Made by a program: the position numbers and the translations under genes. Positions 1 to 14,799 of a stretch of 64,000 nt of DNA are shown here, in pieces (the stretch's first letter is position 1; each line of letters begins with the position of its first letter). Where the stretch lies: assembly GCA_949282725.1 (NCBI GenBank), contig CASDPP010000001.1, forward strand, positions 186,001 through 250,000, given 5' to 3'. Source of the stretch: an uncultured Mycoplasmataceae bacterium. Its GTDB lineage: Bacteria; Bacillota_I; Bacilli_A; Mycoplasmatales; Mycoplasmoidaceae. A model generated the notes under the pieces. The model was not told the DNA's origin, did no database searches, and was given only the letters and a program-made list of their open reading frames with translations.

Positions 1-1
1 A

Positions 2-1441
2 GATTTTAAAGATGAAGTTTTAAATGAAGCAAGAAAAATAACTTGTATTGAAAAAAAAGACTTTGATGAAAGAAAAGACTTAAGATCATTACCAATTATT
101 ACCATTGACCCAACAACTTCAAAAGACTTTGATGATGCAATATATGTAAAAAAGAATAGTGATTCTTTTGATTTATATGTTTCTATTGCAGATGTAAGTC
201 ATTATGTCAAACAAAACACAGCTTTAGATAAATCAGCATATGAACGAGGATGTTCGGTATATTTAGTTGATCGGGTAATTCCGATGTTACCGCACAATAT
301 TTCTGATGATATTTGTTCACTTAATCCAAATGAAGACCGATTAACACTAACGTGTCAAATGAAAATTGATTTAAAAGGTAATATCAAAAATATAGATGTT
401 TATCCTTCTGTTATTCATAGTCACTTTCGTTTCACTTATGATCAAGTAAATGATTATATTGAAAATAAAAAATTTAATGTTCCAGTTAATAAAGAAATTA
501 TAGAAATGATTAAAGATTCTTTAGAACTTCATAAAATTTTAGATCAAAAAAAATATCAAAACGGATACATAAATTTTAATACTCCAGAACCATTAATTAA
601 AATTGATAAGAAAAACAGACCAATTGAAATTACTCAAAAAAAATCAGGTATTGCTCAAAACATGATAGAAAATTTTATGGTTAGTGCAAATGAATCTGTT
701 ACAATGTTTGTTGATAAAATAAAACTTCCTTTTATCTATCGTGTTCATGATAAACCCATCAAAGATAAACTGATTTTATTTGCTAATGATGCAAAAAGAT
801 TGGGATTTATCATTGAAAACGATTATGACAATATAACTTCAAAAGAAATATCACGTTGAATACAAAATAATAAATCTAATCCAAATATTAATTTAATTGA
901 TATGATGCTTTTAAAATGCATGTCAAAGGCAGAATATTCTACAAATAACATCGGGCATTTTGGTTTAGCAATTAAACAATATACACATTTTACTTCACCA
1001 ATTAGAAGATATGCTGATTTAATAGTTCATAGAATATTATGAAATTTTGTTTTTAAACAAAATAAAATAGGAATTGATAAAGAAAAATTAGAAGAAATAT
1101 CAAAGAATATTAATCAAAAAGAAATTATTGCAGTAAAAACTGAAAGAGATGTTAATCAAATGAAATTTGCTGAATACATGTCTAATTTTATAGGAAAACA
1201 ATTTGAAGCAATAATTACTTCTGTAAATACTTTTGGGTTTTTTGTGCAATTAGAAAATATCATTGAGGGTTTAGTTAAAATTGAAAATATTGGTAATGAT
1301 TTTTATACTTTTGATGAAAAGACAAGAGTAATTTATGGCAATAAAACAAAACAAACGTTTTCTTTAGGTAAAAAAGTATTAGTAGAGCTTATATATGCTA
1401 ATAAACACACAAAGAAAATTGAGTTTAAATTAGTAAAATAA
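2..1441 (+). CDS. rnr: Ribonuclease R (5' end outside window)
   Basis: This is a processive 3'-5' exoribonuclease of the RNB family that degrades structured RNA and, with SmpB/tmRNA, non-stop mRNAs. The visible part starts inside the RNB catalytic domain. The four metal-binding aspartates are present as D36, D42, D44 and D45 of the fragment ([12 protein letters not shown]). The C-terminus (about 1160-1441) is an S1 RNA-binding domain that ends right at the stop, without the long basic tail of the E. coli enzyme. In-frame TGA codons, for example at 857 and 1039, encode Trp. smpB follows after 14 nt, the usual rnr-smpB arrangement. Identification is secure; the start and N-terminal cold-shock domains lie upstream of the window. 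Confidence 0.96.
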
Positions 1442-1455
1442 TTTAAAATTTTAAT

Positions 1456-1896
1456 ATGAAAATATTAATTAATAATCGAAAAGCTAATTTCAACTATGAA
1501 ATTCTTGAAAAAATGGAAGCGGGAATCTCATTATTTGGTTCTGAAGTAAAATCAATCATTAAAGGAGATTGTTCAATTGATGAAGCGTTTGTAATTTTAA
1601 AAAAACAAGAAGCTTATGTAATTAACATGTATATTGCTCCATATTTACAAGCAAATATTAATAATCACGAACCAACTAGAAACAGAAAACTTTTATTGCA
1701 TAAAAATGAAATTCTAAAACTAGAATTAGAAATAAAAAAACAAAAGTTAGCATTAATAATTACTAAAGTTTACGTAGTTAAAAATAAAATTAAAATAGAA
1801 ATTGGTCTTGTTAAATCAAAAAAACAATGACAAAAGAAAGAAAAAATTAAAGAAAAAGACATTTTAAGAGAAACAAATAAATCTTATAAGATGTAA
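1456..1896 (+). CDS. smpB: SsrA-binding protein SmpB
   Basis: SmpB binds tmRNA and brings it to ribosomes stalled on mRNAs that lack a stop codon. The 146-residue product has the family's usual length. It starts with the typical NRKANFNYEI block, contains the conserved GISLFGSEVKSI segment, and ends in a Lys-rich tail of the type that folds into the mRNA channel. One TGA (1828-1830) reads as Trp just before this tail; treating it as a stop would remove the essential C-terminus. The gene sits 14 nt after rnr and is probably co-transcribed with it and with the acyl carrier protein gene downstream. The tmRNA gene is not in this window. Confidence 0.95.
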
Positions 1897-1937
1897 ATAA
1901 TATCGGTTTTCAATATATAATAAAATAAATTAGCAAT

Positions 1938-2186
1938 ATGTCTAAAACAATAATATTAGAAACAATCATTGAAATTATCAAAGAATACGGTATCAATATT
2001 GATGTAAAATCTTTAGATTTTAATATGCCTATGAAAAAAATTGGAATAGATTCAATTTTAGGAATTAGCATTATTGTTAGTCTTGAAAAGAAACTTAATA
2101 TTAGAATACCTGATAATTTATTAACTAAAATCACAACAATTAATGAATTAATTGATGTTTGTGAAAAACTTTCAAATTCTAATTAG
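1938..2186 (+). CDS. acpP: Acyl carrier protein-like phosphopantetheine protein
   Basis: The 82-residue acidic/hydrophobic helical protein has the carrier-protein signature GIDSI, so Ser39 is the expected 4'-phosphopantetheine attachment site. The length matches bacterial ACPs. Mollicutes generally lack full fatty-acid synthesis, so a role in lipid or glycerolipid acyl transfer is inferred. It lies 41 nt after smpB. Its TAG stop (2184-2186) shares its last two bases with the first two bases of the tRNA-Trp gene, so tRNA 5' processing of a joint transcript would cut this mRNA inside its own stop codon. Confidence 0.85.
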   Translation: MSKTIILETIIEIIKEYGINIDVKSLDFNMPMKKIGIDSILGISIIVSLEKKLNIRIPDNLLTKITTINELIDVCEKLSNSN

Positions 2187-2259
2187 GGGTGTAGTTCAAT
2201 GGTAGAACAGCGGTCTTCAAAACCGTTTGTTGTGGGTTCAAGTCCTGCCACCCCTGCCA
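2185..2259 (+). tRNA. trnW: tRNA-Trp(UCA), decodes UGA and UGG
   Basis: A complete cloverleaf with encoded CCA. The acceptor AGGGGTG (2185-2191) pairs perfectly with CACCCCT (2249-2255), the discriminator is G, and the CCA is at 2257-2259. The anticodon TCA is at 2217-2219 in the loop CTTCAAA. The 5' start with A and the overall sequence resemble known mycoplasma tRNA-Trp(UCA). This tRNA explains the many in-frame TGA codons. The 5' end overlaps the acp stop codon by two bases. Confidence 0.96.
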
Positions 2260-2271
2260 AATAAAATTAAC

Positions 2272-2299
2272 AATAACTATCTTATGATAGTTATTTTTT
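2272..2299 (+). terminator. Intrinsic terminator after tRNA-Trp
   Basis: A perfect 10-bp inverted repeat (AATAACTATC / GATAGTTATT) with a TTAT loop is followed by a T run. It closes the rnr-smpB-acp-tRNA-Trp unit just before folD. The stem is AT-rich, as expected in this genome. Confidence 0.75.
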
Positions 2300-2318
2300 A
2301 TTATAATTATTACAAGAT

Positions 2319-3176
2319 ATGAAAATTCTTAGTGGTCGTGATTTATCCAAACAATTAGAAGAAAAATATATTGATGAAATTAAACACTTACAAGCAAAAG
2401 GAATAAACCCCACTCTTAATATTATTCAAGTAGGAAATAATCAAGCTAGTAATGTTTATATTGGTAACAAGGTAAAATTAAGCAAAAGATTAAATTTTCA
2501 ATGTAATCATATAAAATATGATGAAAAAATTAGCAATGAAGAATTAATACAAAATATAAAAAAATTTAATAATGATGATTCTGTCCATGGTATTTTAGTT
2601 CAGCTACCATTGCCAAAACACTTAAACGAATCATTAGTCATTGAAGCAATTGACCCAAATAAAGATGTTGATTGTTTTTCAAACACAAATGTAGGTAAGT
2701 TGTGAACGGAAAAAAGAGATATTAGTAAATTACTAAAACCATGCACTCCGTTTGGAGTTATTACTTTATTAAAAAGTAATCACATTCCAATATCTGGAAA
2801 AAATGTTGTAATTATTAATAGAAGTAATATTGTAGGTAAACCATTAGCAGCATTATTTTTATTAGAAGATGCCACTGTTACTGTTTGCCATTCAAAAACA
2901 CAAAACCTTAAAGATTTTACAAGAAAAGCAGATATTTTAGTGTCAGCCGTTGGAATTGCTAACTATATTGATGAATCATACGTCAAAAATAATGCTATTT
3001 GTGTAGATGTTTCTATTAATAGAGATGTTAATGGAAAATTGTGTGGTGATTTTAATTTTGAAAGTGTAAGTGATAAATGTTCATACATTACACCAGTTCC
3101 GGGCGGAATAGGACCAATGACAATTATTTCTTTATTACATAACTTACTATTAGTAACAAAGAATAAAATTAAATAA
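2319..3176 (+). CDS. folD: Bifunctional methylenetetrahydrofolate dehydrogenase/cyclohydrolase
   Basis: FolD interconverts 5,10-methylene-, methenyl- and 10-formyl-tetrahydrofolate, supplying formyl groups for initiator tRNA (see fmt) and one-carbon units. The product is 285 aa, the family length. The catalytic Tyr47/Lys51 pair lies in YIGNK. The nucleotide-binding motif NRSNIVGKP and the C-terminal PVPGGIGPMT signature are clear. One TGA (2703-2705) codes for Trp. A TATAAT -10 box lies about 11 nt before the ATG and no Shine-Dalgarno is obvious, a pattern seen at several genes here. Confidence 0.96.
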
Positions 3177-14214: not shown

Positions 14215-14288
14215 TGGAGCGGGTAATGAGAATCGAACTCACATTAATAGCTTGGAAGGCTATAGTTCTGCCATTGAACTATACCCGC
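14215..14288 (-). tRNA. trnG: tRNA-Gly(UCC)
   Basis: On the minus strand the acceptor GCGGGTA pairs with TACCCGC, discriminator T, encoded CCA. The anticodon TCC is in the loop CTTCCAA. It is the last of five tRNAs transcribed toward the MATE gene. Confidence 0.95.
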
Positions 14289-14290
14289 AA

Positions 14291-14376
14291 TGGTGCTGAA
14301 AGAGGGACTTGAACCCTCACGGTGTTGCCACCACAGGATTTTAAGTCCTGTGCGTCTACCATTCCGCCACTTCAGC
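14291..14376 (-). tRNA. trnL: tRNA-Leu(UAA)
   Basis: An 86-nt class II tRNA. The minus-strand acceptor GCTGAAG pairs with TTTCAGC (one G-T wobble), discriminator A, encoded CCA. The anticodon TAA lies in the loop CTTAAAA and the T-arm is GGGTTCAAGTCCC. Confidence 0.95.
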
Positions 14377-14380
14377 ATAA

Positions 14381-14455
14381 TGGTGTCCCACCGGAGAATC
14401 GAACTCCGGACCCCTTCATTAAAAGTGAAATGCTCTACCGCTGAGCTAGTGGGAC
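14381..14455 (-). tRNA. trnK: tRNA-Lys(UUU)
   Basis: The minus-strand acceptor GTCCCAC pairs with GTGGGAC, discriminator A, encoded CCA. The anticodon TTT lies in the loop CTTTTAA, with a normal D-arm (GCTC...GAGC) and T-arm. Confidence 0.95.
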
Positions 14456-14458
14456 GTT

Positions 14459-14533
14459 TGGCTGGGTAGGTTGGATTCGAACCAACGCATGTCAGAATCA
14501 AAATCTGATGCCTTACCGCTTGGCTACAACCCA
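14459..14533 (-). tRNA. trnQ: tRNA-Gln(UUG)
   Basis: The minus-strand acceptor TGGGTTG pairs with CTACCCA except for a T-T mismatch at the sixth pair; discriminator G, encoded CCA. The anticodon TTG lies in the loop TTTTGAT. It is separated from tRNA-Lys by only 3 nt. Confidence 0.94.
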
Positions 14534-14538
14534 ACACA

Positions 14539-14623
14539 TGGTGGACGGAAGTGGATTCGAACCACTGAAACCTAAGGTGGCTGATTTACAGTCAGCTGCG
14601 TTTGGCCACTTCGCTATCCGTCC
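14539..14623 (-). tRNA. trnY: tRNA-Tyr(GUA)
   Basis: An 85-nt class II tRNA. The minus-strand acceptor GGACGGA pairs with TTCCGTCC bases, discriminator A, encoded CCA. The anticodon GTA is within CTGTAAA. It is first in the five-tRNA minus-strand cluster; the roughly 100 nt upstream to the divergent tRNA-Gly hold both promoters. Confidence 0.95.
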
Positions 14624-14709
14624 GTTATAAGTAACCTTTTTATATTATATAAGTTTTTTAAAATAATAAAAAAAATATTGATATTTTTCCATTTAGTTAA
14701 TTTAATAAG

Positions 14710-14715
14710 TATAAT
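14710..14715 (+). promoter_or_regulatory. -10 box for tRNA-Gly(GCC)
   Basis: TATAAT ends 10 nt before the mature 5' end of the plus-strand tRNA-Gly, at the expected distance for a start a few bases upstream of the tRNA. Confidence 0.55.
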
Positions 14716-14725
14716 ATTGATACAT

Positions 14726-14799
14726 GCAGATGTAGTTCAATGGTAGAATGTGACCTTGCCAAGGTCAAAACGCGAGTTCGATTCTCGTCATCTGCTCCA
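14726..14799 (+). tRNA. trnG: tRNA-Gly(GCC)
   Basis: The acceptor GCAGATG pairs with CATCTGC, discriminator T, encoded CCA. The anticodon GCC lies in the loop TTGCCAA. With tRNA-Gly(UCC) 440 bp away on the other strand, this is the second glycine isoacceptor in the window. Confidence 0.95.

Follow-up and report, generated by a model that had tools for sequence, protein, structure and literature searches.

What becomes of a protein-coding message when its stop codon belongs in part to the tRNA that follows it? The question is raised by a locus in a window of 64,000 nucleotides (the whole stretch of DNA analysed here, from an uncultured Mycoplasmataceae bacterium), where the acp gene ends inside the gene of a tRNA-Trp, downstream of rnr and smpB. 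The original prediction held that maturation of this tRNA would strip the acp message of its stop codon, and that acp expression could in this way be tied to trans-translation, with rnr and smpB as members of the same operon.

The acp-trnW junction and its probable transcript

The acp gene encodes an acyl carrier protein of 82 amino acids (PF00550, E = 2.6e-10) and runs on the plus strand from 1938 to 2186, with its ATG at 1938 and its TAG at 2184-2186; the gene of tRNA-Trp(UCA), whose CCA is encoded, occupies positions 2185-2259 of the same strand. The tRNA is recognized both by ARAGORN (anticodon TCA; the label SeC attached to it is an effect of the bacterial code setting) and by Rfam (RF00005, 2185-2256, 68.8 bits). 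Its acceptor stem involves the pairing of AGGGGTG (2185-2191) with CACCCCT (2249-2255), and is followed by G73 (2256) and the encoded CCA (2257-2259). The A1-U72 pair and the CCA thus fix the first base of the tRNA well at 2185, and the acp stop codon consists of T(-1), A1 and G2 of the tRNA. The 2-nucleotide overlap is real, and the positions originally given for the stop codon and for the first tRNA base are borne out by the open reading frame, by ARAGORN and Rfam, and by the acceptor pairing. Like the selB-selC type of overlap, it has the stop of an upstream coding sequence inside a downstream tRNA gene of the same strand. Judging from the acceptor stem, RNase P is predicted to cleave the plus-strand transcript between 2184 and 2185. 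UGA accounts for 202 of the 219 Trp codons (92%) in the large open reading frames of the window and is read by tRNA-Trp(UCA), which should thus be much needed, each copy costing one acp message if it is cut as predicted. The genome also has a tRNA-Trp(CCA), at another locus, and acp itself contains no Trp codon.

A TATAAT that matches the -10 consensus in six of six positions lies 22 nucleotides before the acp ATG (1916-1921, plus strand) and is the predicted -10 element of the transcript; within 40 nucleotides upstream of trnW, no -10-like hexamer better than three of six was found. On the other side of the tRNA, a terminator-like hairpin with a T run (AATAACTATC-TTAT-GATAGTTATT-TTTTA; 2272-2300, plus strand), recognized by sequence and fold, would end the transcript ahead of folD (2319-3176, plus strand; PF00763, PF02882), the next gene, which has its own TATAAT just upstream. 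The acp promoter, the promoterless trnW and the hairpin beyond it make a joint acp-trnW transcript very probable, as had been proposed; acp and trnW(UCA) very probably form one short transcription unit of their own, in which the acp start is nearly leaderless and acp is only 249 nucleotides long. Among relatives, a perfect TATAAT is present at most 45 nucleotides upstream of the ATG in 25 of the 26 acp genes scored; in front of the tRNA it is absent from all 17 cases with a gap of 17 nucleotides or less but present in 9 of the 16 whose gap is at least 29 nucleotides, a class in which the preceding open reading frame is in a few cases not acp. A scan for sigma-70 promoters and terminators gave no signal above shuffled sequences, which can be explained by the fact that promoters here show only a -10 element and that the hairpin is too A+T-rich for a G+C-based scan.

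The 3' part of rnr, encoding RNase R (positions 1-1441, plus strand; open reading frame 2-1441 under code 4; PF00773, E = 6.8e-116, and an S1 domain), starts before the window and is followed by smpB (1456-1896, plus strand; PF01668, E = 5.7e-47). Both genes are indeed upstream of acp and on the same strand. Their grouping with acp and trnW in an operon is not secured: since acp has a TATAAT of its own, rnr-smpB may constitute a unit apart, or may be joined to acp only by read-through, and rnr is probably a neighbour that lies outside the acp-trnW unit. The four-gene arrangement is also unconserved, as tblastn, for which the window genome provided the positive control, detected neither rnr nor smpB within approximately 1.5 kb of acp at any of 49 loci in relatives; among the loci compared, rnr-smpB lies beside acp only in the window genome. 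The adjacency of rnr and smpB is in itself ordinary gene order in Firmicutes (PMC12320835, PMC3534368). A meaningful tie between the overlap and the adjoining rnr-smpB genes is consequently unsupported.

Recurrence of the overlap among relatives and at other tRNA genes

The linkage of acp and trnW(UCA) is, as comparison across the order indicates, old. Of 50 such pairs, three overlap, every one of them by exactly 2 nucleotides; part of the pairs, the order-wide sample, had been selected by a pattern that demands T or A at position -1, which biases it toward such overlaps. Apart from the window genome, the three are genomes G071 (of another family, f11) and G102 (of another genus, g17), and in both the protein is an ACP (PF00550, E = 4.8e-9 and 1.7e-12, respectively). 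The 19 other acp-trnW pairs of the genus to which the window genome belongs have gaps of +4 to +74 nucleotides, the acp stop being placed upstream of the cut. The overlap is thus missing from these close relatives, its recurrence being confined to G071 and G102, and the notion of a conserved regulatory overlap is not supported.

How such a junction can arise is illustrated by two congeners: G060 (L300, C1) reads CAA-TAG-CCC-T|AG and G102 (L292, C10) reads CAG-CCC-T|AG, where the bar marks the tRNA boundary. This comparison shows that the former acp stop of G102 was lost through a change of TAG to CAG, upon which T(-1)A1G2 of the tRNA became the next stop. T is present at -1 of tRNA-Trp(UCA) in 46 of the 50 pairs, a sample in part selected on that position, and since A1 and G2 are fixed, a TAG is usually present at -1 to +2 and would be in frame for approximately one third of gap lengths. 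With a short spacer, the overlap should therefore be within easy reach; even so, only three of the pairs have it. Depending on the frame, stops within the tRNA are provided at -1 to +2, at nucleotides 8-10, or in the D arm (ending at nucleotide 21 in some tRNAs and at 23 in others). Selection might be suspected behind three independent overlaps of the same length, but their recurrence at that position is accounted for by T(-1)A1G2. It is of note that in two congeners an acp-like gene precedes a different tRNA in place of tRNA-Trp(UCA): tRNA-Trp(CCA) after a gap of 58 nucleotides in G018:C12 (L058), and tRNA-Gly(UCC) after a gap of 29 nucleotides in G016:C32 (L057).

Overlaps of this kind are found at other tRNA genes of the genus as well. 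Outside the window, but in the same genome (G000:C3:126496-126919; L319, L010, L318), a gene for an S1-domain protein of 118 amino acids (PF00575, E = 2.1e-6) has as its stop codon U8A9G10 of tRNA-Arg(UCG) (G000:C3:126496-126572), and so ends 10 nucleotides inside the tRNA. Among 18 S1/tRNA-Arg(UCG) pairs of the genus, five end 10 nucleotides inside and two end 23 nucleotides inside, three abut, and eight are separated by gaps of 1-7 nucleotides; the stop thus lies within the tRNA, by 10 or 23 nucleotides, in 6 of 17 congeners besides the window genome. A tree of the S1 protein, itself weakly supported, calls for at least five changes between inside and outside positions. In G015 (L110, C8:14460-14533), ymdB (PF13277, E = 6.8e-80) overlaps tRNA-Trp(CCA) by 1 nucleotide, and in G020 (L415, C6) a 270-aa gene with a similar C-terminus enters tRNA-Trp(CCA) by 10 nucleotides.

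A survey of every tRNA, 198 in total, in six genomes from the genus reveals that most tRNAs that are first in their cluster have their own TATAAT, and that a small recurring set lies close behind a gene and tends to lack its own -10 element. This set consists of Trp(UCA) behind acp, Arg(UCG) behind the S1 gene, Trp(CCA) behind ymdB, Thr(GGU) behind a gene of approximately 190-295 aa, and Ile(GAU), which follows a 130-aa gene resembling rpsI. Credible overlaps amount to 3 of the 198 tRNAs, two of them in the window genome. A 111-aa open reading frame of G026 that overlaps tRNA-Thr(UGU) by 18 nucleotides was rejected as spurious, the tRNA's own TATAAT being located inside it. A scan of genome contigs for the pattern TAGGRGTGTAGYTCAA proved too general and was set aside: its matches were mainly tRNAs from Alphaproteobacteria and other phyla, where the long open reading frames in frame lay in G+C-rich sequence, in which open frames are to be expected often. 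Elsewhere in the window, at 14215-14799, a minus-strand cluster of five tRNAs (Tyr, Gln, Lys, Leu and Gly) faces a plus-strand tRNA-Gly(GCC) approximately 100 nucleotides away. The recurrence of overlaps at acp-trnW and at other tRNA genes indicates a real physical conflict, and one of wider reach than the original prediction had recognized.

Predicted fate of the cut message

A cut by RNase P between 2184 and 2185 would plausibly leave an acp mRNA that ends in ...AAU-U and has no stop codon. The genome encodes an RNase P RNA of class B (G000:C1:295808-296135) and a tmRNA (G000:C3:5986-6396) whose tag, ADYNKNDNMKMDQSFMINELSKQNQLNFAYLA, ends in ...NFAYLA; SmpB, RNase R and the tag protease Lon are also encoded, such that the tmRNA, SmpB and protease needed by a non-stop gene of the arfA type are all available. 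In Mesoplasma florum, Lon degrades SsrA-tagged protein (PMC9097571), while SmpB is essential in both Mycoplasma genitalium and M. pneumoniae, and RNase R of the former also trims tRNA 3' ends (PMC4014445). The separation of T from AG by RNase P, in a cell that encodes the rescue pathway, is hence supported as a prediction from the sequence. As for the proposed link between tRNA maturation and acp through trans-translation, the non-stop outcome is plausible, while the regulatory part assigned to rnr-smpB finds no support.

The course of events that best accounts for these observations would be the following. Transcription would start at the acp promoter and end at the hairpin 3' of the tRNA; with the loss of the spacer that is present in relatives, acp has come to terminate on the ready-made T(-1)A1G2, as can be read directly from the sequence. 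Ribosomes could use the TAG of a given transcript only as long as RNase P has not cut it between T2184 and A2185; from then on the acp message would be non-stop, and the ribosome, the message and the product would be cleared by tmRNA-SmpB, RNase R and Lon along known pathways. A given transcript could then serve either as a source of tRNA or for the production of further untagged ACP, the two uses being mutually exclusive. We consider it likely that the overlap is a recurrent and tolerated by-product of compact mRNA-tRNA units, whose non-stop messages would be cleared by housekeeping trans-translation, and that it does not represent an evolved switch tied to rnr-smpB.

Such a switch, in which tRNA-Trp maturation removes the acp stop, trans-translation limits ACP, and the co-located rnr-smpB genes tune or sense the process, could draw on components that are all encoded, on a 2-nucleotide overlap that arose at least three times, and on the precedent of Escherichia coli arfA, where non-stop messages made by an RNase can act in regulation and, in addition, repress the cistron upstream (PMC10107115). 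It is nevertheless distinctly unlikely, given that rnr-smpB accompanies acp-trnW at none of the 49 other loci, that acp has its own predicted promoter, that 47 of the 50 acp-trnW pairs do without an overlap, and that the comparable overlap at the unrelated S1/tRNA-Arg pair points to a general cause that is not specific to acp. The overlap could also be inconsequential if acp translation were completed before the tRNA is made and folded, and if RNase R destroyed the cut message before reinitiation. The short acp gene (249 nucleotides) with its nearly leaderless start would be suited to this, and relatives with gaps of 4-17 nucleotides would also be left with an unprotected 3' end, from which decay would presumably soon remove the stop in any case. 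This separation in time is, however, unlikely, since tRNA-Trp(UCA), the reader of 92% of the Trp codons in the window, seems dependent on the acp transcript, which implies many cuts and some ribosomes caught by them.

Repair by 3' adenylation, as in mitochondria, would proceed from the terminal U left by the cut: the geometry matches that of those human mitochondrial messages whose end abuts a tRNA (PMC9674279), and the addition of AA after U2184 would restore an in-frame UAA. What makes this highly improbable is that neither the poly(A)-polymerase domain (PF01743) nor the RNase_PH/PNPase domain (PF01138) was found in the window genome, by searches that both match in most control genomes, although in a genome that is 92.8% complete such absences are no proof. 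Lastly, in a six-contig draft from one strain the end of acp might be suspected of being misassembled, but the acp frame is intact, as are the tRNA and the terminator-like hairpin, and several unrelated assemblies show equivalent overlaps, which leaves this explanation with a negligible probability.

Implications and parallels with known systems

If RNase P cuts as predicted, the overlaps would constitute a genetically fixed and constitutive supply of non-stop mRNA in these bacteria, and would offer one concrete reason for the retention of tmRNA-SmpB in mollicutes and for the essentiality of SmpB in M. genitalium and M. pneumoniae (PMC4014445). The bases of the tRNA (T-1, A1 and G2; U8-A9-G10; a TAG in the D arm) serve as fallback stop codons for the upstream gene, and natural pairs of species, with the stop before or inside the tRNA, would allow the cost to be measured. 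One may go further and imagine that in such reduced genomes the 3' ends of protein messages are the source of a small fixed set of promoterless tRNAs, that RNase P routinely yields non-stop RNAs, that the output of several small proteins is governed by trans-translation, and that in the window genome read-through from rnr-smpB allows the rescue machinery to sense how heavily it is loaded; this broader scheme is speculative and quite improbable.

The literature covered, which comprised few subscription papers, yielded no description of such an overlap between acp and trnW in mollicutes. The closest published idea is that of Mukai (2021), who proposed the same non-stop consequence for the selB-selC overlap of Alphaproteobacteria, Gammaproteobacteria and Nitrospirae (PMC8124441); mitochondrial punctuation (PMC9674279) and arfA (PMC10107115) are functional parallels. 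As in selB-selC, where the stop of Dyella and Luteibacter lies inside the tRNA, the 3' end of a bacterial coding sequence reaches into, or extends across, the next tRNA gene of the same strand. In selB-selC, however, protein and tRNA belong to one pathway and the whole tRNA is often nested, whereas no tie to their tRNAs is known for acp, the S1 gene or ymdB (ACP has no known role with tRNA-Trp, and acp lacks Trp codons), and their overlaps extend over 1-23 nucleotides and are mostly absent in relatives. Animal mitochondrial tRNA punctuation (PMC9674279) resembles what is predicted for acp-trnW, where the promoter layout speaks for a joint transcript: RNase P cuts at the tRNA 5' end and thereby removes or truncates the upstream stop, and there is a rescue system for non-stop ribosomes; in mitochondria the stop is completed by polyadenylation and rescue involves MTRFR, while the window genome has tmRNA-SmpB and no detected adenylating enzyme. 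In E. coli arfA (PMC10107115, PMC3989581), a cut by RNase III generates the non-stop message and trans-translation represses the product, a likeness to the cut predicted here. For arfA, a regulatory circuit within ribosome rescue has been demonstrated; at acp-trnW any regulation would be hypothetical, and the cutting enzyme would be RNase P, acting in the maturation of the tRNA.
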